A stretch of DNA of 64,000 nucleotides. Source: Marinitoga piezophila KA3. GTDB lineage: Bacteria > Thermotogota > Thermotogae > Petrotogales > Petrotogaceae. Of the stretch, positions 16,693 to 30,824 are shown in pieces. How positions within the stretch are numbered: position 1 is the first letter of the stretch; the number at the start of each line of letters is the position of its first letter. The notes beneath the pieces were generated by a model. It did not search any database. It was not told the DNA's origin and worked only from the letters and a program-made list of their open reading frames with translations. Position numbers and translations under genes: made by a program. The stretch covers positions 1,922,001-1,986,000 of the forward strand of contig NC_016751.1 of NCBI RefSeq assembly GCF_000255135.1. Reading direction: 5' to 3'.

Positions 16693-19446
16693 TTATTTAT
16701 TTAATTCTTCTAAAACAGCAATACATCTTGGACAAGCGTCAGGGTACTTTTCGTTATTTCCAACTTCTGGATGTATTTTCCAACATCTTTCACATTTCTT
16801 TCCTTCTGCTTTTACAACTTTAACTTTTGCAAATTCACCTTCATAACCTTCATCAACACTTCCCAATTCAAATTGTGAAGTAATAAATAAATCAGCAACG
16901 AAGTATGGATCGTAAGAAGCCAAAATTTCTTTTAATTCTTCTGATTTTGGTTCAACAATGATTTTGGCATCAAGTGGATGTCCAATGAATTTTTCTCTTC
17001 TCTTTTCTTCAAGTGCTTTTGTTACGTCTTCTCTCAACTGGAATATTTTATTCCATTTTTCTTCAAGTTCTTTATCAAAGTATTTTTCGTTTACTTCTGG
17101 CCATTCTTCAAGCTGAACAGTTTCATATTTTTTAGTTGGTAAATAAGAATATATTTCTTCTGTTGTAAATGCAAGTAATGGAACCATCAATTTTGTTAAA
17201 GCTACAAGAGCTTCATACATTACAGTTTGTGCGGATCTTCTTAATCTTGATTTTGGTAATTCTGTATAAATTCTGTCTTTAATTATATCAAGGTACATAG
17301 AACTCATTTCTACTGTACAGAAATTATTGATTAAATGATGAACCCTGAAGAATTCATAATTTTCATAGGCTTCAGTTACCTTTTTAATTAACTGATGAAT
17401 CTTCATCATTGCCCATTTATCCAATTCTTCCATTTCTTCGTATGGAACAGCATCTACTTCAGGATCAAAGTCAGAGGTATTACCCAATAAGAATCTTATT
17501 GTATTTCTATATTTTCTATATACTTCTGTTTGTTGTTTTAAAATTTCAAATGAAACCTTTATATCACCTCTATAGTCACTTGAAGCAACCCAGAGTCTTA
17601 AAATGTCTGCACCATATTTATCTATAACATCAAATGGGCTTATAACATTACCGAGGGATTTTGACATCTTTCTTCCATCTTTATCCTTTATAAAACCATG
17701 AGTTAATACAGCTTTAAATGGTGCTTTGCCATTTTTTGCAACTGAAAGGAATAATGAACTCTGGAACCAACCTCTATGCTGGTCTGTACCTTCAAGATAA
17801 AGATCAACAGGATATTTACCAAGGTCTTCCCTTACATTTACTACAGCATCCCATGATGAACCTGAGTCGATCCATACATCAAGAATATCTTCTTCTTTTT
17901 TGAAATGTGTTCCTCCGCATTTTGGACATTTATAGCCTTCTGGTAAGAAATCCTCTACAGGTCTTTCATACCATGCATTTGTACCTTCTTTTTCAACTAT
18001 TTCTATTACTTTATCCAATACTTCTGGATCGAGGAATGTTTCACCACAATCTTCACAGTATAATGCAGGTATTGGAATACCCCATGCTCTCTGTCTTGAA
18101 ATACACCAATCAGGTCTGTCCTGAACCATGGCGGTGATTCTATTTTCTCCCCATTCTGGAATCCATTCTACATTTTTAATTTCATCGAGAGCTTTTTGTC
18201 TGAGATTATTAGAGTCTACAGAGATGAACCATTGTTCTGTAGCTCTGAAGATAACAGGGTTTTTACATCTCCAACAATGTGGATAAGAGTGAGTAATATC
18301 TGCTCTTGCAATTAAATGACCAGATTCTTTTAAATCTTCAATAATAATCTTATTTGCTTTCCATATATGTAAGCCAGCATATTTGCCAGCTTCATTTGTA
18401 AATACGCCTTCATGGTTTACTGGAGACAATACAGGAAGTTTGTATCTTAAACCAGTTTGATAGTCATCAGCACCATGTCCAGGAGCTGTATGAACACACC
18501 CTGTACCATCTTCAAGAGTTACATAATCAGCCAATACAATTAATGATTCTCTATCCATAAATGGATGTTTAGCCTTTTTGTATTCGAGATCTTTTCCCTT
18601 GAATTTTTCAAGTACTTCATATTTTTCAATACCTGCAACCTTCATTAAATTTTCCACTAATGCTTCTGCAAGAATCCATTTTTCTTCACCAACAGAGATT
18701 TTTACATAATCATATTCAGGGTGAAGGGCAATTGCAACATTAGCAGGTAATGTCCATGGTGTTGTTGTCCAGATTACAATATATGTACCTGGTTCATCTT
18801 CCATTTCAAACTTTACATATATTGATGGGGATGTATGGTCATGATATTCTATTTCTGCTTCGGCTAATGCTGTTTCACAACTTGGACACCAATATATAGG
18901 TTTTTTGCTTCTAAAAATATTTCCGTCTTCAGTAAGTTTTTTTACTATTCCAAGTACTTTTGCTTCATAAGCAGGTTCAAGAGTTACATAAGGGTGTTCC
19001 CAATCTCCTCTAACTCCCAATCTTTTAAATTCTTCTTTTTGAATTTTTACGAAATCAAGAGCGTATTTTTCACATAATTTTCTTATTTCTAATTTTGACA
19101 TTTGTTTTGCTTTGTCGCCAAGTTCTGTTGTAACCTTATGTTCTATTGGTAATCCATGAGTATCCCAGCCAGGGACATAAGGAGCTTTAAACCCCTGCAT
19201 AGTTTTATATTTAATAATTATATCCTTTAAAATCTTATTTAATACGTGTCCAATATGAATATGACCATTTGCATATGGAGGTCCATCGTGCAAAATATAC
19301 ACAGGAGCCTTTTCTCTTTCTTTTCTTACATAATGTTCGAGATCCATTTCTTCCCATTTTTTTAATGTTTCTGGTTCTTTCTTTTTTAAGTTTGCCTTCA
19401 TACTAAAAGGCGTCTTTGGTAAGTTCAAAGTATCCTTATAATCCAA
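16693..19446 (-). CDS. ileS: Isoleucyl-tRNA synthetase
   Basis: IleRS charges tRNA-Ile. It is full length at 917 residues. The HIGH motif reads HIHIGH near residue 61, the editing domain includes [13 protein letters not shown], and the KMSKS loop is [10 protein letters not shown]. The C-terminal zinc-binding segment has CERCW and CPRC, as in bacterial-type IleRS. The start codon is TTG with ggaggtg upstream. It lies 15 bases downstream of a response-regulator gene and has no leader of its own, so no T-box can precede it; it is presumably transcribed with the two-component genes. Confidence 0.97.
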
Positions 19447-19461
19447 TTTAACACACCTCCA

Positions 19462-19818
19462 TCACATATTTAAAAGTCTATTTATTGTTTCTTTAAATTC
19501 AGTAAGATCAAGTGATTTTACAACATATGCATCTGCAGCCCATGAAGCCATATCGCTTTTGTAATGACTATAAGCTGTCATTAAAACGATCTTTTTATCC
19601 GGGTATTTTTTTCTAATTTCGCTTGCAAGTTCAAGGCCATTCATTTCTGGCATTTCAATATCAAGAGATATAACATCGAAATTCTGATCATTTGAAAGAA
19701 TTTCAAGAGCTTTTTTTGCGCCATTTGCCTCTACAACTTCAAAACCGGAATCTTCCAATTCTTCCTTTAATAATAATCTTATATTATCTTCGTCGTCAAC
19801 GATTAAAATTCTTGCCAT
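19462..19818 (-). CDS. Single-domain response regulator (CheY/Spo0F-like receiver)
   Basis: The 118 residues are a lone receiver domain: acidic pocket D8/D9, phosphoacceptor D53 in SLDIEMPEMNG, T81 and K101. There is no output domain, so it must act by binding a partner or in a phosphorelay. It lies 15 bases downstream of a histidine kinase and 15 upstream of ileS, with a clean gggagggg ribosome-binding site. Pairing with the adjacent kinase is inferred from operon position. Confidence 0.93.
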   Translation of the reverse strand: MARILIVDDEDNIRLLLKEELEDSGFEVVEANGAKKALEILSNDQNFDVISLDIEMPEMNGLELASEIRKKYPDKKIVLMTAYSHYKSDMASWAADAYVVKSLDLTEFKETINRLLNM

Positions 19819-19833
19819 TTTAACCCCTCCCTT

Positions 19834-22587
19834 TTAATTTAAAGGAATTTCAAATCTAAATACAGTAGATTGTTCATCTGATTTTACTAAATAAAGTTTA
19901 CCTTTATGTTCTTCTTCTATTATCTTTTTACATATAGGCAATCCTAAACCTGTTCCCTGAACTTTTGTGGTAAAAAACGGAGAGAATATCTTTTGTTGTA
20001 CATCTTCTGGTATTGGATCACCATTATTTTCAATTTCAAAAAATGCGTAATTGTTTTCATATCCTGTTTTTATTTTAATATAATCACCATCATTAGTGGC
20101 CTCTATGGCATTTTTTATTAAATTAATAAGTACCTGTTTTACTCTGCTTCTATCACATTTTACCTCTATTTTATCAAACATTTTCTCAAATTTCAAATCT
20201 AAATTTTTTTGACTTAAAAAATCATGGTACATTATTATTATTTCATCTATCATTTCATTCATATCAACAATTTCAAATGTCGGTATTCTACTACCTCTAC
20301 TAAATTCTAAAATTTCAGAAACAATGCTTTCAAGACGCTCTAACTCATCTTTTATAATATTTGAATACTGTTTTATTTTTTCAGGGTTATCCAGTTTTTT
20401 CATCATCCTATTTACAAAACCGCCTATAATAGTCAAAGGATTTTTTATTTCATGAGCCACTCTTGCTGTCATTTCACCAATTGCCGCTAATTTTTCTCTT
20501 CTTGCAATTTCCTTTTCCATTTTATAATTTTCAGTAACATCATCAAAAGTAACAATAACTCCTTCGATTACATCTAAATCTCTGTTCCATAAAGGTGAAA
20601 GTTGAATATCGAAAACTTTTTCTTCATCGCCTGTGGAGATTATATATTTTGGCATTTTCATTTCTTCACGGGTGAAAAAAATGCTTTCAATTGAATTAAC
20701 AACATCTGCTCCAAGTTTTTCATATAAAATATCAGTTGTCTCTCCTATTACATGCTCGCGAGGCTTATCAAAAAAAACTTCTGCCTTTTTATTCCATTCT
20801 AATATTTTACCTTTTCTGTCAATAACAATAACAGCCATGGCGAGATTTTGGAGTATATTTTCATTAAAACGTCTATAAAAATCTATAAGATTTTTTTGTT
20901 CTTCAAGTGACTTTGTTTTTTCCTTTAATTCTTCGTAATTTTCAATGGTTTCTATAGATAACCCTATACTATCCTGGAATAATCTTAAAATTTCAATATC
21001 CGTAGCAGAAATTTCCTGTCCTGTGAATTTATTATCTGCAATAACAATACCTTTTGTTTCCCATTTTCCTGTAATTGGAATAATAACAAATTCATCATAC
21101 TGAATAATATCATATAAGTATTGCAATTCATCTTTTTTAAATTTTAGCATTTGCGGAACAACATGAATAATATGTTTTTTGGTTACGGCTCTTTCTAAAA
21201 TTGTCTGTCCCTTATAAACAATAACCTTGTTTTTAACACTTTCGGTTAATTTATTATTAGTCGGTAATTGTATTGCCTCTTCTCTTAAATATTGAACAAT
21301 ATCACCATATTTTAAAGCTCTTTTATTGGCGTTTTTCCATATTGCTTCAACATCGTCATCATCTGCGGGACCAATCCATATTTTAGGTATTAAAATTCCT
21401 CGAACTCTATCTCTTTCTAAATATAAAGCCCTGTTAAATTTTAAACCTCTAACGCTTGTTAACCCCATAAGCATAATTTTTATAGCATTAGTCTTATCGA
21501 AAGTTGTTCTAACAGCCTGACTGATTTTATGAAGTGAATTAAGTTTATCAAGATGGTCTCGTTGCACTTTTATAAGATTTTCATGATTTTGTTTTAATGT
21601 AATAAGTTTTTCTATTTCGTCTTTTAATTTATCATATAAATATATCCTGCTTAAAGCCAGACCAAGACGTCTTGTGATATTTCTTAATGAAGATAAATCA
21701 AATTCATCAAAATGTTTATAAGGTCTGAATCCGTATCCTTCCTCACGATTATATACACTTATCACTCCATATTCAATGTTATCAATTAATATAGGAGCGT
21801 ATAATGCTGAAAGTAACTCTTTAGCTATAGGAATTTTAAACTCTTTAAATCTTTTTCTTCCAACAACAAGAAAAGGTTTTTTATTTTTTATTGCCATTCC
21901 TTCAAGAGAAGATTCGGTATCAAGCATCATATCTGAAATAACTTCTTCTTTAAATCCAGTATATTCTTTTAATATAAGTTTATTTCCCTCATATTTCCAG
22001 AAAATAACCCCCTCAGCATGAAGCATATCTTGAATTGTTTTTAATATTTCTTTCATTAATTTTTTTTCATCAAGGATATTTTCAAATAAATCAGTTATTT
22101 TTTCCACGTAATCAAGTCTGTTTCTTGTTTCTTCAAGTACAAGAAACTCCATGGTCATTTTCAGAATAACGCTATAGCTTATAGTTTCTTCGTGAAATTT
22201 TTCCAATTCTTTTTCTGAAAAGTGCTTTGGGACACCGAAAGCACCTATTAAAGAATCATTTATATTAATAGGAATTAAAAAAATTTCATTATATTTTAAA
22301 CAATGCAATTCTTCAAAATCACCTACAGTTATTTTAAAAATCTGATTTTTTAAAAGAGACTCATATAATCCCTTATTATCAGAAAAATAAATTTTAAATT
22401 TTTCAATTGCCTGACAATCATTTGATGCACCAAGAAGTTTTATTAGATTTCTTGGCGGTTCATGGATAAATATAAAAATATCTGTATTGAACTTTTCAGC
22501 CAGACTTTTTGCAGTATTATTCAATATGGTTTTTAAAAGTTTAGTAGGAGGTTCATTTGAAAAACTTCTGAGTAAGTTATTAAGCAT
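19834..22587 (-). CDS. Soluble GAF/PAS sensor histidine kinase
   Basis: A 917-residue cytoplasmic kinase with no membrane segment. Order: an N-terminal GAF-like region (about 10-160), a second GAF domain (about 165-320), a coiled linker, a third GAF-like region (about 345-560), a PAS domain (about 575-690), the dimerisation/phosphoacceptor helix with H712 in ARVAHEIKNPL, and a HATPase domain with NLIKNAIEA, ENNGDPIP and GTGLGLPICKKI. Multiple GAF/PAS domains imply sensing of small internal ligands or redox state. It is the first gene of a unit with a lone receiver and ileS. Ligand unknown. Confidence 0.93.
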   Translation of the reverse strand: MLNNLLRSFSNEPPTKLLKTILNNTAKSLAEKFNTDIFIFIHEPPRNLIKLLGASNDCQAIEKFKIYFSDNKGLYESLLKNQIFKITVGDFEELHCLKYNEIFLIPININDSLIGAFGVPKHFSEKELEKFHEETISYSVILKMTMEFLVLEETRNRLDYVEKITDLFENILDEKKLMKEILKTIQDMLHAEGVIFWKYEGNKLILKEYTGFKEEVISDMMLDTESSLEGMAIKNKKPFLVVGRKRFKEFKIPIAKELLSALYAPILIDNIEYGVISVYNREEGYGFRPYKHFDEFDLSSLRNITRRLGLALSRIYLYDKLKDEIEKLITLKQNHENLIKVQRDHLDKLNSLHKISQAVRTTFDKTNAIKIMLMGLTSVRGLKFNRALYLERDRVRGILIPKIWIGPADDDDVEAIWKNANKRALKYGDIVQYLREEAIQLPTNNKLTESVKNKVIVYKGQTILERAVTKKHIIHVVPQMLKFKKDELQYLYDIIQYDEFVIIPITGKWETKGIVIADNKFTGQEISATDIEILRLFQDSIGLSIETIENYEELKEKTKSLEEQKNLIDFYRRFNENILQNLAMAVIVIDRKGKILEWNKKAEVFFDKPREHVIGETTDILYEKLGADVVNSIESIFFTREEMKMPKYIISTGDEEKVFDIQLSPLWNRDLDVIEGVIVTFDDVTENYKMEKEIARREKLAAIGEMTARVAHEIKNPLTIIGGFVNRMMKKLDNPEKIKQYSNIIKDELERLESIVSEILEFSRGSRIPTFEIVDMNEMIDEIIIMYHDFLSQKNLDLKFEKMFDKIEVKCDRSRVKQVLINLIKNAIEATNDGDYIKIKTGYENNYAFFEIENNGDPIPEDVQQKIFSPFFTTKVQGTGLGLPICKKIIEEEHKGKLYLVKSDEQSTVFRFEIPLN

Positions 22588-23630: not shown

Positions 23631-24854
23631 ATGTACGATTTTGTTGTTATAAAATATAGTGAAATAGGAACGAAAGGGAAAAATAGAAATGTGTTTGAGA
23701 ATAAATTAATGAATAATATAGTACTTCAATTGAATCATGAAGTAAATGCAAAGAAGATTTATGGTAGAATCATAATTATTCCAAAGGATAATAAAAAAAT
23801 AAATGATGAAATGTTAAATAGAATAAAAAAGGTTTTTGGTATAAAGTCAATATCTCCAGCTGTAAAGGTTGAAAAGGATTATGAAGATATAAAAAATAAA
23901 ATAATAAGTTTATTAAAAGAAAAAAATATAGAATCAGGTACATTTAAGGTTGATACGAGACGTGTTGATAAAATGTTTCCTATTAGAAGCTTTGATTTAA
24001 ATAAAGATATTGGTGCAGAAATACTTGAAAAATTTCCTGGGATGAAGGTTGATGTTCATAATCCTGATTATTTAATAAGAATTGAAATAAGACATGAAAT
24101 GGCATTTGTGTATTTTGAAAATCTTGAATGTCATGCTGGATATCCTGTAGGTGCAGGAGGAAAAGCAAGTATTTTATTATCTGGTGGTATTGATAGTCCT
24201 GTGGCTGCATGGATGATGATGAAACGTGGAATGAAAATGAATGCTATTTCTTTCTATAGTCCGCCTAATAATAGTGAAAAAACTGTTATGAAATTAGTGG
24301 AGTTGAGTAAAGTTTTAAGTACGTATTATCCATTTAAATTCTATCATTATATAATTCCTTTCACTGAAGTTCAAAAGGCTATAAAGAATATTAACGTTGA
24401 ATCATATTCGTTGATTTTGCAGAGAAGATCAATGATGAGAATTGCAACAATTATTGCTAAAAAAAGTGGTTCTCAGGCATTAATTACAGGTGAAAATATA
24501 GGTCAGGTGGCTTCACAAACACTGGAAAATATGATATCCATTTCAGACGCAACTGATATGTTGATTTTAAGGCCATTATTGGCTTTTGAGAAGCTTGATA
24601 TTGTTAATAAATCAAAGGAAATTGGAACTTATGACATTTCTATATGGCCATATAATGATAGCTGTGTGGCATTTTTACCTAAAAAACCAGCTACAAAATC
24701 ATTTCCGGACAAAATGAAAAAATACGAAGAAAGAATAGAAAATCTTGAAATTTTAGAAGAAGAAGCAATAAAAAATAGCATTGTATATGTTATTAAAAAC
24801 GGGGAAGTAGAGGAAAAATACATCTTTCATGAGAGAGAGGTGGTGGATAAGTGA
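23631..24854 (+). CDS. thiI: tRNA 4-thiouridine synthetase ThiI
   Basis: ThiI installs 4-thiouridine at tRNA position 8 and, in some bacteria, helps make the thiazole of thiamine. The 407 residues comprise an N-terminal ferredoxin-like plus THUMP region (about 1-165, KYSEIGTKGKNR near the start) and a PP-loop ATPase with SGGIDSP at 184-190. It ends without a rhodanese domain, so the sulfur relay must be of the short type found in Bacillus. The stop overlaps the GTG of plsC by four bases. Confidence 0.95.
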   Translation: MYDFVVIKYSEIGTKGKNRNVFENKLMNNIVLQLNHEVNAKKIYGRIIIIPKDNKKINDEMLNRIKKVFGIKSISPAVKVEKDYEDIKNKIISLLKEKNIESGTFKVDTRRVDKMFPIRSFDLNKDIGAEILEKFPGMKVDVHNPDYLIRIEIRHEMAFVYFENLECHAGYPVGAGGKASILLSGGIDSPVAAWMMMKRGMKMNAISFYSPPNNSEKTVMKLVELSKVLSTYYPFKFYHYIIPFTEVQKAIKNINVESYSLILQRRSMMRIATIIAKKSGSQALITGENIGQVASQTLENMISISDATDMLILRPLLAFEKLDIVNKSKEIGTYDISIWPYNDSCVAFLPKKPATKSFPDKMKKYEERIENLEILEEEAIKNSIVYVIKNGEVEEKYIFHEREVVDK

Positions 24855-25624
24855 ATAAAATAGGGCTGTTTTTTAAAAGGATTTTATTAACAATATGGTT
24901 TTATCTGGGATTAATATGGTATGTTGGAATTTATGGTACCTGGGTTATAATCAGATCTAAAATCATAGAAAAAACAAAAGGAAAAGAAAAGGCAGAAGAA
25001 TATATTATAAATGTTTTAAAAAAATTTGGGAAAAATGCATTTAAGTTAATGGGAGTTAAGGTATATGTAGAAAGTGAATTTGATCTGTCTCAAATGGGCG
25101 ATGAAGCGTATATGATAGTGGCAAATCATCAAAGTTTACTTGATATTCCTCTTATAATAGGATATGTATTCCCAACAGCGTTTATAGCAAAGAAAGAGCT
25201 TTCTAAAGTTCCTATTGTTTCATTTTTTATTAAGGCATTGGGATCTGTATTTATTGAAAGAGGGAATGCAACTCAAAGTGCAAAAGCATTAAGAGAACTG
25301 CGAAAAAAATTAATAGATGGCCAGAAACTTGTTTTATTTCCAGAAGGGACAAGAACCTTAGATGGTGAAGTTAAGCCATTTAAACGTGGCTCATTGATGA
25401 TTCCATACAGATATAAGGTAAAAATATTACCTGTTGCAATTGATGGAGCCTATGAAATTGCTAAAAAGGGACGTTTATATATTACACCACACCCAATAAA
25501 CATCACTATATTTAAGCCTGTAAATCCTGAAGAATTTGGTAGCGAAGCTGAATTAAGGGATTATATATATAAATTAATTGCCTCAAAAGTGAATAAAAAG
25601 GAAGAATTTGAGGAAGTGGTTTAA
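24851..25624 (+). CDS. plsC: 1-acyl-sn-glycerol-3-phosphate acyltransferase
   Basis: PlsC makes phosphatidic acid by acylating position 2 of lysophosphatidate. The 257 residues have a hydrophobic N-terminal helix (about 10-35), the catalytic NHxxxxD as H93 and D98 in NHQSLLD, the substrate motif FPEGTRT, and IPVAIDGAYE-like block IV (LPVAIDGAYE). It starts with GTG overlapping thiI and ends overlapping the next gene (TAATG), so the thiI-plsC-BFN-prenyltransferase genes are tightly coupled. Membrane associated. Confidence 0.94.
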   Translation: MNKIGLFFKRILLTIWFYLGLIWYVGIYGTWVIIRSKIIEKTKGKEKAEEYIINVLKKFGKNAFKLMGVKVYVESEFDLSQMGDEAYMIVANHQSLLDIPLIIGYVFPTAFIAKKELSKVPIVSFFIKALGSVFIERGNATQSAKALRELRKKLIDGQKLVLFPEGTRTLDGEVKPFKRGSLMIPYRYKVKILPVAIDGAYEIAKKGRLYITPHPINITIFKPVNPEEFGSEAELRDYIYKLIASKVNKKEEFEEVV

Positions 25625-26172
25625 TGTTTAAAAAGGTAGATGTAATTACAATGGGGTTAGATAAAGTATCCAACTCTCCGGTAATCTTTTTAAGAATAGA
25701 AAATACAAATATAGGAATTCCAATATGGATAGGAGCCTGTGAAGCAACTTATCTTGCATTATCTATAAACGAGCAAAAAACGCCAAGACCGCTTACACAT
25801 GATTTATTTTTAAAATTTTTAGAGAATGAGGGATATACAGTTGAAAGAGTAGAAATAATAAATATGGAGAAAGACATATATTATGCCAATATAGTTTTTG
25901 AAAAAGATGGTGATGAATTAATATATGATTCAAGACCTTCAGATGCAATAATAATGGCTGTAAAAACGAGAGTTCCAATATATATTAAAGATTCTATAAT
26001 CATAGAAAATGGCATAGATATATCCTTTATTCCAATTGGTGAACGTGATGATGAAGAAACAGATGAAGAGAGAGAAAAAAGAAAGGAATTTAAAGAATTT
26101 ATAGAGAATTTTGATATTGATATGATAAAAAAACATTTCTTTGATGAAGGGAAGAAAGAAGATGGAGATTAA
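25624..26172 (+). CDS. Bifunctional nuclease (BFN, DUF151) domain protein
   Basis: The 182 residues match the BFN/DUF151 family: PIWIGACEA and the second conserved block SRPSDAIIMAVKTRVPIYI. An acidic/charged tail follows (about 140-182). Members of the family were reported to have DNase/RNase activity in plants and are widespread and conserved in Thermotogota, but the bacterial role is not settled. It overlaps plsC at the start and the polyprenyl synthase gene at the end. Confidence 0.88.
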   Translation: MFKKVDVITMGLDKVSNSPVIFLRIENTNIGIPIWIGACEATYLALSINEQKTPRPLTHDLFLKFLENEGYTVERVEIINMEKDIYYANIVFEKDGDELIYDSRPSDAIIMAVKTRVPIYIKDSIIIENGIDISFIPIGERDDEETDEEREKRKEFKEFIENFDIDMIKKHFFDEGKKEDGD

Positions 26173-27013
26173 AGAGTTTAAAGAGATTTTTGAAAAAAAG
26201 GCAGAAGAGATTTTTTCTGAACTAAATTTGCTTGAAGAAATAGAAAAACCTTTTAAATATTCTTTTTTTGCTGGAGGAAAAAGATTAAGGCCATGGATAA
26301 TATATAATATTGGACGATATTATAATATAGAAGAGGAAAAATTGCTTAGAATAGGTTTTGCTGTAGAAATATTACATACTGCATCGTTAATTCATGATGA
26401 TTTACCGGCAATAGATAATAGTAATTATAGGCGTGGAAAATTAACCAATCACAAGCAATTTTCAGAATGGCAGGCCATACTTACAGGGGATGCAGGATTT
26501 GTTATTCCATTTAAGGTGTTTTCCAATAATTTTTCTATAGATGAATCATATAAATTAACAGGATTTTTCAGTGAAATTATGTTAGATCTTATACAAGGAG
26601 AAGCTCTTGATGTAGCATTTGAAAGAGGCATGATATTACCATCGCAAAAATCTGTTGAAGAAATGTATAGAAAAAAAACATCGGCGTTATTTGAATTTTC
26701 GTTTGGTGTAATTCCTTATTTAAAGGATCTTAAAGAGGAATATCAATTAATGAAAAAAGCAGGTAAAAACTTTGGACTTGCATTTCAAATATATGATGAT
26801 TTAAAAGATAAATATGGCAAATTCGAAGAGGTTGGAAAAGATTTAAATAATGACGAAAACAAAATTACTTTAATAGCACTATATTCAGACGAAAAAGCTA
26901 AAAATTATGCTGAATTTCTTTTCAAAGAGGCAAATGATATATTATTGAAATTAGGTCTTAAAGATTTTTCAAATGAGATATTAAAAATAAAACAGCTAAT
27001 TGAAAGGAAGTAA
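26162..27013 (+). CDS. ispA: Polyprenyl diphosphate synthase (farnesyl/geranylgeranyl type)
   Basis: A trans-prenyltransferase of 283 residues that condenses isopentenyl diphosphate with an allylic diphosphate. FARM motif: LIHDDLPAID followed by RRGK; second aspartate-rich motif: IYDDLKDKYG. The GGKRLRPW motif near the N-terminus binds diphosphate. The start is taken as ATG 26162, after gaagggaagaaag; an earlier in-frame ATG at 26141 lies upstream of that site. The residues before the FARM motif that set chain length cannot be interpreted confidently by eye, so C15 versus C20 product is open. Confidence 0.9.
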   Translation: MEIKEFKEIFEKKAEEIFSELNLLEEIEKPFKYSFFAGGKRLRPWIIYNIGRYYNIEEEKLLRIGFAVEILHTASLIHDDLPAIDNSNYRRGKLTNHKQFSEWQAILTGDAGFVIPFKVFSNNFSIDESYKLTGFFSEIMLDLIQGEALDVAFERGMILPSQKSVEEMYRKKTSALFEFSFGVIPYLKDLKEEYQLMKKAGKNFGLAFQIYDDLKDKYGKFEEVGKDLNNDENKITLIALYSDEKAKNYAEFLFKEANDILLKLGLKDFSNEILKIKQLIERK

Positions 27014-27015
27014 AA

Positions 27016-29556
27016 ATGGCCAAAAAAGAGAAGAAAAAAAAGGAAGAAAAGGAAGAAAAAAAGGAAGGAAAAAAGAAAAAAATAGATTTTTCCAAGATAA
27101 CTGGAATAATAAAAAAAATAAATATAAAACAATTAATAGCAGATATAAAAAACTTCAAGCAACTACCTAAAAAGAAGAAAATCACGTTGCTTGGAGGTTT
27201 TTTGGTTTTTATTATATTTATAATCTCTTTAATCTTAATTCCAACATTTAGAACAAAAAAATTACAGGTTGAAGATGAAGCTAAGTCTGCATCTGTATCC
27301 AATCTCTTTTTATATGTTCCGCCTGGAGCATTTCAATATAGAAAAACCTTTACTATAAAGGCATTGAAGGAAAATTCTGCAGAATATCAGAATCTTAAAA
27401 CCTTTGGTAATTTTTATGGTCCAATATATGAAATAATACCAGATGATAATAAAGAAGAATCTTCGTTAAAACCCATAAAAATAAAATATAGAATACCATT
27501 GGATTTATATTATGGAGATAATTTTAATAATTTTGCGATTATGTATGCCTCAAATGATGATCCGCCAATAATAAAAAAATTACCAGGATGCGAAATATTT
27601 AAAGACGAAAGTCTTGGGCAATATATAGTTCAGGCAAATGTATTCCATTTTTCAAAATTTGGATTGTATGTAGATTCAAATCCAAAAGAGGTTTCATATG
27701 GTATAAAAACATTAATAGAAAAACCGCCATCATTGGAACCTGATCTTTTGCTGGTGCCTGGAGTTGACAATGATTTTCTTGGATATATTCCAAACACACA
27801 AACTATTAATAACCTTTATGGTGAAAATGTATGGAGCTTGTATTTCCCAAATAGAACAATATGGTATTATAAATACCCAATTCTTGAATCCAAACCAAAA
27901 AATTATATGGATTCATATTTTGGATTTTATATAAGAACTGGAAGTAATAGTTTTTTAGAGTTTGAAGCAGAAAGATTTGCCGCAGAATTAAAAGCAAAAC
28001 AGAATAAACAATTTGATATTATTGCTCAGGGGATAGGAGCATTAATTGTAAGATATGCATTAGAAACACATCCTGAAATAAAAAATGTTAGAACTTTAAC
28101 CTTATTTTCACCACCAAATAAAGGAATGAATATAGTTAATCCTATATATTACAACATCATATACAAGAAGAATCCTGAGGTTATGGAGCTCTCTTATGGT
28201 ATAAACAAAGAGGATTATAATTCATTATTTTTAAATATTAGCTCCAAAATCGAAATGTATGCATCATATTATAAAGATTTGCTTCCGGATTCAAAGTTTA
28301 TAAGAAAATTAAATAATATGAAAACAAGAAAAGATATTGACTATTATGTAATAATGGGAACAAAACCAGATTTAAATGCTTATTTAAAAAATTCAAAGTT
28401 AAAAGATTTTTATCCAGAATTAATTGATGGTATAGGAGATGGGCTTGTTACATTAAAAAGTGCCGAATTAAAAAACGCCAGGATGTTTACATTTGATTTA
28501 TCCTATGACAAACTATATTCTGACAACAATGTTTTAAAAACTGTTCAAAAATTATTGTCAAAAGATATAAAAACGGTAAAAATCCCTCAAATAAAAGACG
28601 ATGATTTTGTTGAATCACAAAAAGAGTTAGAAGAAAAGAAAAAAGAAATGGAATTAAAAACAGAAAAAGAATCACTGGCAAATATATTTGTAAAATCCAG
28701 CTCCTATATGAAACTTCACATGATAGATTTAGAAGAACAATTGTTATATATTTCTAAATTAACTTATGGAAAAATATATATGCTTGGAGATAATGCCTTT
28801 GTGGTTTCAGATAATGGGGTATATGATCTTGATGGAAGGAATATATTAAATAAAAAAATACTTGGAAGCATAGAATATAAAAAACGTTTATATGTAACTA
28901 CAATAGATGGGGTTTATGCTATAGATGCCAGTTCAAATGAATTTATGAAAATAAAAAATATAGATTTTGAAGTCCATAATAACGTTTATTACCTTCCGGA
29001 AATCAGGAAATATATATATGTTGATTATCAGGATGGTCTTGCAAAAGTATATGAAAATAATGAACTTATATCTGAAAAGACCCCTTTTGACTCTATAAAA
29101 GTAATAAATAATGACTTTTATATAATTTTAGGAAATAAGGTCTTAAAAAGAAAAGAAGATAAATGGGTTACAGTAGTTACCAGAGCTGGTATAGAAGATT
29201 TAACAAGAAAACCTATAGGTAATATAATTGATTATTATTCAAGATCATATTATATTTTCCTGCTTACATCTGATTATAGATTGGTGGTATATGATACTAA
29301 AAACTCAAAAGTTCAATTTGTTGGAGATGGCGATGTAGGCAAGATGAAGTTACTTGAAAATAACAATAGATTATGGATATTTGATAGAAATTTTGCAACA
29401 TATATAGATTTAAAAAACAAGGTGTTTCCAGGTGTTTATGATTCAATTACAGATTTTGAAATTATAGATATAATAGGAATAGAAAAAGATACGTTTTTGC
29501 TTCTTATAAAAAAAGACGGGGGATTTGAATTATGGAAAGCAAAAGTAAAGTTTTAA
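27016..29556 (+). CDS. Membrane-anchored ZU5-like / lipase-fold / propeller-like protein, probably a pseudoenzyme
   Basis: I do not recognise a named family for the whole 846 residues. Visible parts: a lysine/glutamate-rich N-terminus (1-55), one membrane helix (about 56-78), a ZU5-like beta-sandwich (about 90-215, with YVPPGAF, IYEIIPDD and FHFSKFGLYV), an alpha/beta-hydrolase lipase-like domain (about 220-515), a charged linker, and a C-terminal beta-rich repeat region (about 570-846) resembling a propeller. In the lipase domain, LLLVPGVDND, VRYALETHPEI and TLFSPPNKGMN align with the usual pattern. However, the nucleophile elbow reads AQGIG, with G339 where serine is expected. The acidic GDGLV (474-478) is kept. 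It overlaps the next gene by 25 bases. Confidence 0.75.
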   Translation: MAKKEKKKKEEKEEKKEGKKKKIDFSKITGIIKKINIKQLIADIKNFKQLPKKKKITLLGGFLVFIIFIISLILIPTFRTKKLQVEDEAKSASVSNLFLYVPPGAFQYRKTFTIKALKENSAEYQNLKTFGNFYGPIYEIIPDDNKEESSLKPIKIKYRIPLDLYYGDNFNNFAIMYASNDDPPIIKKLPGCEIFKDESLGQYIVQANVFHFSKFGLYVDSNPKEVSYGIKTLIEKPPSLEPDLLLVPGVDNDFLGYIPNTQTINNLYGENVWSLYFPNRTIWYYKYPILESKPKNYMDSYFGFYIRTGSNSFLEFEAERFAAELKAKQNKQFDIIAQGIGALIVRYALETHPEIKNVRTLTLFSPPNKGMNIVNPIYYNIIYKKNPEVMELSYGINKEDYNSLFLNISSKIEMYASYYKDLLPDSKFIRKLNNMKTRKDIDYYVIMGTKPDLNAYLKNSKLKDFYPELIDGIGDGLVTLKSAELKNARMFTFDLSYDKLYSDNNVLKTVQKLLSKDIKTVKIPQIKDDDFVESQKELEEKKKEMELKTEKESLANIFVKSSSYMKLHMIDLEEQLLYISKLTYGKIYMLGDNAFVVSDNGVYDLDGRNILNKKILGSIEYKKRLYVTTIDGVYAIDASSNEFMKIKNIDFEVHNNVYYLPEIRKYIYVDYQDGLAKVYENNELISEKTPFDSIKVINNDFYIILGNKVLKRKEDKWVTVVTRAGIEDLTRKPIGNIIDYYSRSYYIFLLTSDYRLVVYDTKNSKVQFVGDGDVGKMKLLENNNRLWIFDRNFATYIDLKNKVFPGVYDSITDFEIIDIIGIEKDTFLLLIKKDGGFELWKAKVKF

Positions 29557-30824
29557 TATTATTAATTTTTATAATTTTGAATATAGTGATTTTTTCCCAG
29601 ACACTTCTTGAAAAGGCTGAAGTGTATTATTTTAATGGGAAAAGCTCTTTTCAGTCTGGCGAATACAAAGCTGCAGAAAGATATTTTCAGGAAGCTTTAA
29701 GTTTAACAGCTGAAATAGAGATAAAATATCCTGATATTAGATATATGCTTGGATGGACAAAATTCTATTTAAAAAAATATACTGAAGCTGAAAAATATTT
29801 AAAATATTATCCCAATGATGAAAAAGTTCAATTAGCTTTGAAAAGTATAAGAGAAGGTAATATAGAAGAAGATTTACATTTTAAAAGTGCAAACATAACC
29901 ACCGAAGAAGCAACTGGAACAGAAGAAGAAAAGATAAAAATTCCAATTACTGCTTATATTATAGCCTCTGCCATTATACTTTTAATTATTTTATTATTAG
30001 TAGGTTTATCATATTTCTTTGTATTTAGAAAATACTCATTAGGTGCTAAAGGTGCAAAGGTTGAAAAAGAAGAAGAAGAAACTATTGAAGAAGTTGAAGT
30101 TGAAGAAGAAGTAATTCCTGTAGAAGAAATACTTGAAGTAAAGGTTGATGAATTAGAGGAATTATGGCAGGAATATGAAAAGATGAAACAAAAAATGGAT
30201 ATTGATGAAGAAGAAATATCCAATGAATCAGTTTTGCCAGAAGCTGAACCGCAAAATGCACCACCACCGCCACCTCCACCACCTGCACCACAAATTCAGG
30301 ACAATACAGAGGAAAATCTGGAAGAATTAGATGTGGATAATCTGCTTGAAGAAAGCGAACCGCCTCAAAATGTTGAGGAAAATATAGAAGAAGAAAATAT
30401 GACAGAGGAAAATATAGAAGAAAATATAGAGGAGCAAGTAGAGGAAAAGAACATAGATATAGAGGATTTAATCGAAGAAAAAAATCAGGAAACAGGTGAA
30501 GAAGAAAATACAGAAGCTGAAAATGAAACTGATACTGATGAGGGCGATAATACAATTGATGAAGTTATAGAAAAAGATAAAGTAAAAAACTTAGATGAAA
30601 TAGAAACTGTAAAACCACATATGGAAGTTGTCGCGAAATATAATAAAATTATGAAAGAACCAGGTGGGGCAATAGTAGCTTCAAATGTAAAAGGAATAGA
30701 AAGTTTAGAAAATCTGGATGAGGAAGTTGCAAACAAGGGTGGAGTTTATTCAAAAGGAGACTTACATACAATATTCAAGGAAATTTTCGCGGAAAGAAAT
30801 AGAGATGAACTGATGATAGAATAG
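29532..30824 (+). CDS. TPR-containing membrane protein with a long acidic, proline-bearing cytoplasmic tail
   Basis: No named family recognised. The 430 residues start with a signal or membrane segment (about 7-22), then two TPR-like helix pairs (about 24-92, with FQSGEYKAAERYFQEALSL) predicted outside, a second membrane helix (about 139-165), and a long cytoplasmic region dominated by glutamate, with a run of proline near 248. The last 70 residues are less biased and may form a small folded module. The gene overlaps the pseudo-lipase gene, which argues that the two act together at the envelope. Function unknown. Confidence 0.75.
   Translation: MESKSKVLILLIFIILNIVIFSQTLLEKAEVYYFNGKSSFQSGEYKAAERYFQEALSLTAEIEIKYPDIRYMLGWTKFYLKKYTEAEKYLKYYPNDEKVQLALKSIREGNIEEDLHFKSANITTEEATGTEEEKIKIPITAYIIASAIILLIILLLVGLSYFFVFRKYSLGAKGAKVEKEEEETIEEVEVEEEVIPVEEILEVKVDELEELWQEYEKMKQKMDIDEEEISNESVLPEAEPQNAPPPPPPPPAPQIQDNTEENLEELDVDNLLEESEPPQNVEENIEEENMTEENIEENIEEQVEEKNIDIEDLIEEKNQETGEEENTEAENETDTDEGDNTIDEVIEKDKVKNLDEIETVKPHMEVVAKYNKIMKEPGGAIVASNVKGIESLENLDEEVANKGGVYSKGDLHTIFKEIFAERNRDELMIE

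Follow-up and report, generated by a model that had tools for sequence, protein, structure and literature searches.

Neuroligins are catalytically dead α/β-hydrolases that serve as binding modules. Among the related β-sandwich domains of ZU5, GAIN and FIIND type, self-cleavage takes place at HF/S in PIDD, C-terminal to its ZU5 domains, and at SF/S in CARD8 and NLRP1, with the fragments remaining associated (PMC3210808); the GAIN domain is cut at HL/S or HL/T (PMC11697300), and the ZU5 domains of bacterial surface proteins have been proposed to be autopeptidases (Zhang et al. 2012, PMC3482391). None of the elements described below is new on its own, whether dead hydrolase, bacterial ZU5 domain, propeller or tetratricopeptide repeat (TPR). 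Here we describe two overlapping genes of Marinitoga piezophila KA3 (genome of 2,244,793 bases in two contigs), located in a stretch of 64,000 nucleotides at positions 1,922,001 to 1,986,000 of contig NC_016751.1, which we call the window. The first encodes a singly anchored membrane protein with predicted ZU5-type, lipase-fold and propeller domains, and the second encodes a TPR protein. In the papers searched we found no description of such a one-anchor combination with a dead lipase fold and a co-inherited TPR partner, maintained within a lipid-gene block over most of a phylum; nor was there any literature under the presumed locus names TM0162/TM0163, which were guessed from the position of the genes.

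Both genes lie on the forward strand. The first open reading frame (ORF1; 27016..29556) encodes 846 amino acids; profile searches of 103 Thermotogota genomes, the sample for all presence and absence counts below, find homologues of it in 78. The second (ORF2; 29532..30824) encodes 430 amino acids, and the two overlap by 25 bases, as the initial annotation of this DNA had reported. An AlphaFold2 model of ORF1, built on an alignment of 17 sequences, has a mean predicted local-distance difference test score (pLDDT) of 81 but a predicted template-modelling score (pTM) of 0.55, so that the individual domains are reliable and their mutual arrangement is not. The ZU5-like, lipase-like and propeller-like assignments made from the letters alone were borne out by structure prediction and fold search. 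The modelled lipase-fold domain, residues 227–516 (27694..28563), superposes on the lipase BlEst2 (PDB 6wpy) with a Z score of 21.0 and a root-mean-square difference (r.m.s.d.) of 3.1 over 223 aligned residues. In Pfam it matches Palm_thioest just above the cut-off (27.4 versus 26.8 bits), and ORF1 does not reach the DUF7379 cut-off (12.8 versus 33 bits). A sequence search of solved structures gave no match to the domain, and a profile of the whole of ORF1 gave only chance-level matches.

The domain shares its fold and an Asp-containing DG motif with BlEst2 and the Palm_thioest/DUF7379 relatives, but it lacks their Ser, their His and their HG oxyanion motif, and it is set between a ZU5 sandwich and a propeller in a membrane-anchored protein. 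The nucleophile position in the elbow AQGIG is occupied by Gly339 (28030..28032), as had been claimed, while Asp475 of the GDG sequence (28438..28440) is retained as a catalytic-type aspartate. The catalytic His of intact lipases aligns with Ser496-Tyr497 (28501..28506), and ORF1 contains no His from GDGLV (474–478) through residue 520, which agrees with the earlier reading of this segment and extends it. Among 74 homologues the nucleophile column holds Gly in 57, Glu in ten, Asp in six and Ser in one, and in none of them does the His column hold His (Phe, Tyr, Trp, Ala or similar residues are found instead). The sole homologue with an elbow Ser (L039) likewise has no His at that position. The homologues that cover the DG motif retain its catalytic Asp. 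As a control, intact lipases of Thermotogota, including L134 of T. maritima, match the profile of the dead domain in a small-set search and place their Ser, Asp and His on ORF1 positions 339, 475 and 497. These intact relatives are separate, shorter lipases; a complete triad at these positions was sought within the family and not found. Because Ser is replaced in 73 of the 74 homologues and His in all of them, the lipase domain is, as far as its aligned residues tell, dead across the Thermotogota, and the loss of catalysis first suggested for Marinitoga holds for the phylum.

Haloalkane dehalogenases and epoxide hydrolases of the same fold use Asp as their nucleophile, and the domain might in principle still be an enzyme acting through the acidic elbow residue seen in the 16 homologues with Asp or Glu, or through Asp475. 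We regard this as very improbable: most members have Gly at the elbow, the His partner is gone in every one, and where intact relatives have the HG oxyanion motif and TPH, this family has PG and TPN. The acidic elbows themselves follow clades, with Asp in some and Glu in Fervidobacterium-type genomes, as a clade-specific replacement of the nucleophile (L047, L053, L058, L061 and L063, L099–L107).

Much of what is conserved in the lipase domain lies close to the former active site. In a set of 30 sequences, each pair of which is less than 60% identical, 18 of the 37 highly conserved lipase-domain positions fall in five loops of the catalytic face that account for 51 of 298 positions (hypergeometric P = 1.5e-6). 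This distribution agrees with a retained pocket. By the mean majority-residue fraction the lipase domain is also the best conserved part of the protein (0.52, compared with 0.34 for the propeller).

The two genes are inherited together. Both were found in 77 genomes and neither in 25; the pseudo-lipase occurs alone in one genome and the partner alone in none. The single pseudo-lipase-only genome (G065) is 71% complete and has an open frame of 271 amino acids. The partner follows immediately 3' of the pseudo-lipase in about 52 of 68 full-length loci (51 by clustering and one with a partner fragment only), so the gene pair is conserved in both co-occurrence and adjacency. In 16 genomes of our family f10 and in G041 the genes are unlinked, with the partner elsewhere in the genome, and both are nevertheless kept; because they sit apart there, their co-retention is not due to linkage. 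The two genes are one evolutionary module.

The surroundings of the pair are also conserved. In the Marinitoga locus it is preceded by genes for a plsC-type acyltransferase, a protein with a bifunctional nuclease (BFN) domain and an ispA-type prenyl synthase (24851..27013, forward strand), with thiI 5' of these and lgt 3' of ORF2. Across the family ispA stands directly upstream of the pair in 49 loci, BFN one or two genes upstream in 54 and plsC two or three genes upstream in 48; the pair normally closes a plsC-BFN-ispA membrane-lipid operon. The next gene 3' in Thermotoga-type genomes resembles an undecaprenyl-phosphate translocase (PF04018), and in some other genomes it encodes a glycosyl transferase family 4 protein or is lgt. 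Mainly because genes for membrane lipids and lipid carriers recur beside the pair, the ligand of the pseudo-lipase may plausibly be a lipid or an acylated molecule. We also note that the PF04018 gene (L113, T. maritima, 170078–170872 of the record; L112:2943-3752) overlaps the end of the partner gene by a few bases.

The pair is jointly absent from family f2, from the four genomes of genus g32 (in f10) and from G052 and G055 of genus g25, a genus in which G057 and G061 keep it; G013 and G089 also lack both genes, but may be incomplete genomes. The plsC-BFN-ispA series is complete in f2 and in G052 and G055, with ispA as its last member, and in the latter two the genes that follow resemble those found 3' of the pair in f5 relatives. 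From these absences and clean ends, at least three joint losses are likely. Divergence beyond recognition in f2 was rejected as an alternative to loss, as profile searches fail there too and the ispA neighbourhood ends without the pair. Neither the operon context nor the clean joint losses figured in the initial annotation, nor did the H-x-S motif described below. The order thiI-plsC-BFN-ispA (23631–27013 of the window; L164–L168) is common to Marinitoga and the pair-less Kosmotoga-type genomes, and plsC-BFN-ispA occurs in family f5 as well; the lipid-gene block thus persists where the pair has been lost.

In our view, the interpretation that best accommodates these observations, and one that we consider somewhat more likely than not, is that the pair forms a single envelope complex in which the dead lipase domain most likely serves as a binding or sensing head. 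The first protein would be held by one helix in the inner membrane and would display the ZU5 sandwich, the dead lipase fold and the propeller in the periplasm; the second would place its TPRs in the periplasm, cross the membrane once and carry its acidic tail into the cytoplasm. Having lost ester hydrolysis, the lipase domain would bind or sense an envelope component, and the propeller and TPRs would make protein contacts. The two-protein envelope complex proposed earlier therefore stands as a two-gene unit, whereas the physical association of the products, like their topology, the ligand and the direction of any signal, is inferred. Neuroligins likewise keep a hydrolase fold without its nucleophile in an extracytoplasmic, membrane-anchored protein, but they belong to another subfamily and to other organisms.

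Several points weigh against this interpretation. All lipases conserve Gly-rich loops around the elbow because their structure requires it; loop conservation alone is therefore no proof of ligand binding, and the five loops were picked with the lipase fold in mind. The arrangement of the domains in the full ORF1 model is, as its pTM indicates, uncertain. In addition, the pair is absent from family f2, which we take to be the Kosmotogaceae (Kosmotoga-type) and which have toga proteins, and this shows that an envelope can be built without the complex. A tie between the pair and the toga proteins was itself rejected, since Kosmotoga olearia and Mesotoga, presumably of this pair-less family, possess such proteins. 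Their OmpA and OmpB homologues are on record (PMC3387000). A tie to rod shape was rejected as well: true MreB is present in the pair-less Kosmotoga-type and f10-g32 genomes and missing in the pair-bearing family f5. Across the greater part of this deep-branching phylum an uncharacterized, non-catalytic protein of lipase fold is maintained together with its TPR partner, as a probable envelope module linked to genes for membrane lipids. The pair offers a concrete point of entry to the envelope of the Thermotogota, which is poorly understood, and a phylum-wide example of a pseudoenzyme.

The C-terminal part of ORF1, about residues 565–846 (28708..29553), is predicted to be a β-propeller, which probably has seven blades because about 27 strands are predicted. 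In Foldseek searches and structural comparison it matches WD40-, YncE- and BamB-type propellers of many families with Z scores of about 16–18; the fold is clear, and no single family is singled out among these equal scores. BamB and YncE being among the matches, the two proteins could instead be a chaperone for the outer membrane or for secretion, with the propeller and TPRs escorting envelope proteins in the manner of BamB/BamD or YfgM and the lipase fold acting as a spacer. The TPRs of ORF2 do match the BamD and YbgF models, but weakly and far below the cut-offs, and their similarity is generic; eukaryotic WD40 propellers score as well as BamB, which indicates a match to the fold and not to a family, and it is the supposed spacer that is best conserved. 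We therefore think such a chaperone improbable.

At its other end ORF1 begins with a basic, presumably cytoplasmic part (residues 1–55, 27016..27180) of low pLDDT, followed by the single transmembrane anchor that had been proposed (about residues 56–74, 27181..27237), which is indicated by hydropathy and by a helix at 52–74 in the model. ORF2 reaches the Pfam TPR_2 cut-off (31.3 versus 27 bits) in two stretches and is predicted to consist of a signal-like N-terminus, periplasmic TPRs at 29–103, an anchor at 139–157 and an acidic cytoplasmic tail. Of the two membrane helices given to it initially, both appear as hydrophobic segments (7–25 and 139–157), but the first looks like a signal peptide and not a second anchor. 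The basic and acidic cytoplasmic ends had further been described as nearly opposite in charge and suggested to pair. In M. piezophila the ORF1 N-terminus does carry a net charge of about +15 and the ORF2 tail is indeed acidic, but the latter amounts to about −63, and the pattern is not conserved in a comparison of 50 gene pairs. The net charge ahead of the anchor varies between −1 and +20 (median +5) and that of the tail between −6 and −73 (median −20.5); the two correlate weakly, with a Spearman coefficient of −0.26 (p 0.06) from sequences that are not independent. The sign of the tail is kept, whereas a strongly basic N-terminus is confined to close relatives. Pairing of the two proteins through these ends consequently appears highly unlikely.

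The ZU5-type sandwich spans about residues 80–222 (27247..27681). When residues 78–227 were modelled alone (pLDDT 85.8), Foldseek ranked ankyrin ZU5 first (4d8o, E = 1.9e-5), followed by the GAIN domains of adhesion G-protein-coupled receptors (GPCRs) and by FIIND. The top six matches are all ankyrin ZU5, and these alone have E < 0.001; superposition on ankyrin ZU5 gives a Z score of 11.0 and an r.m.s.d. of 3.5 over 136 residues. Among the Pfam matches of 15 family members there was no ZU5 model, even with E allowed to reach 1. The turn before the last strand, between strands 202–209 and 214–219, contains His211-Phe212-Ser213 (27646..27654), whose F212/S213 bond is a candidate self-cleavage site; the equivalent triplet in T. 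maritima is HLS. Over the 74 homologues the triplet reads H-x-S/T in 48 (including HFS in ten and HLS or HLT in 12), Q-[IL]-[ST] in eight, FPG in eight and [VI]-[VI]-P in ten. In Marinitoga and Thermotoga the motif thus matches the self-cleaving domains well in position and letters, but in other clades it matches poorly.

These features raise the possibility of a self-cleaving tether, in which the ZU5 domain would cut between residues 212 and 213 and the last strand, dead lipase and propeller would be held non-covalently by the anchor and the rest of the ZU5 domain, as in GAIN. Force or a protease might in that case detach the outer part, and such a step could be added to the binding complex without contradiction. 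Apart from the shared fold group and the H-x-S/T turn, the joint loss of His and Ser in two clades (FPG and [VI]-[VI]-P) points in this direction, as does the resemblance of the triplet to the PIDD, CARD8/NLRP1 and GAIN cuts cited above. The middle residue, though, is often Thr, Ser, Ala or Gly where known sites have a buried Phe or Leu; Petrotoga-type proteins have Gln for His and two clades lack the site, so that cleavage would not be universal; and the motif may be structural. Self-cleavage is possible in some lineages, and we treat the tether as a tentative alternative of clearly lower standing than the binding complex. By analogy one might go further and envisage a GAIN-like tether that works with the TPR partner, whose tail reaches the cytoplasm, and reports the lipid or mechanical state of the Thermotogota envelope; this we consider more doubtful still. 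Whether a bacterial core protein undergoes GAIN-like self-cleavage is nonetheless a question that this pair allows to be put to a simple test.

The known counterparts set limits to the analogy. The domains of ankyrin, PIDD, the adhesion GPCRs, NLRP1 and CARD8 have the same sandwich, and Marinitoga and Thermotoga carry HFS or HLS at the turn before its last strand, but here the domain is bacterial, presumably periplasmic and followed by a lipase fold instead of UPA or a receptor; the motif is incomplete in several clades, and cleavage is only putative. In other bacteria, ZU5 autopeptidase domains known from surface proteins and from polymorphic toxins (PMC3482391) likewise stand towards the N-terminal end of large exported proteins, which may have propellers too. 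In contrast to those systems, neither a toxin nor RHS repeats nor an immunity gene was seen here, and the protein is single-copy, phylum-wide and accompanied by a TPR partner.

Some further observations concern individual sequences. Beyond the Thermotogota a single weak candidate relative was found, in a KSB1 metagenome (L087:6497-8500); this distant protein has an elbow Gly (AQGVGG), keeps the His and bears a C-terminal extension of its own. In two genomes of genus g3 (L050:5404-7763 and L068:1135-3448) the pseudo-lipase is divided into two open reading frames by a break near residues 475–505, which reflects either a split gene or a sequencing error. The many stops in both genes of L070 (from G002, 87% complete) are probably due to poor sequence. 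Elsewhere in the window (16693–22587) a class I tRNA synthetase gene adjoins a lone response regulator and a histidine kinase of PAS/GAF type on the minus strand; the two large open reading frames of this region are equal in length (917 amino acids) by coincidence and are unrelated.

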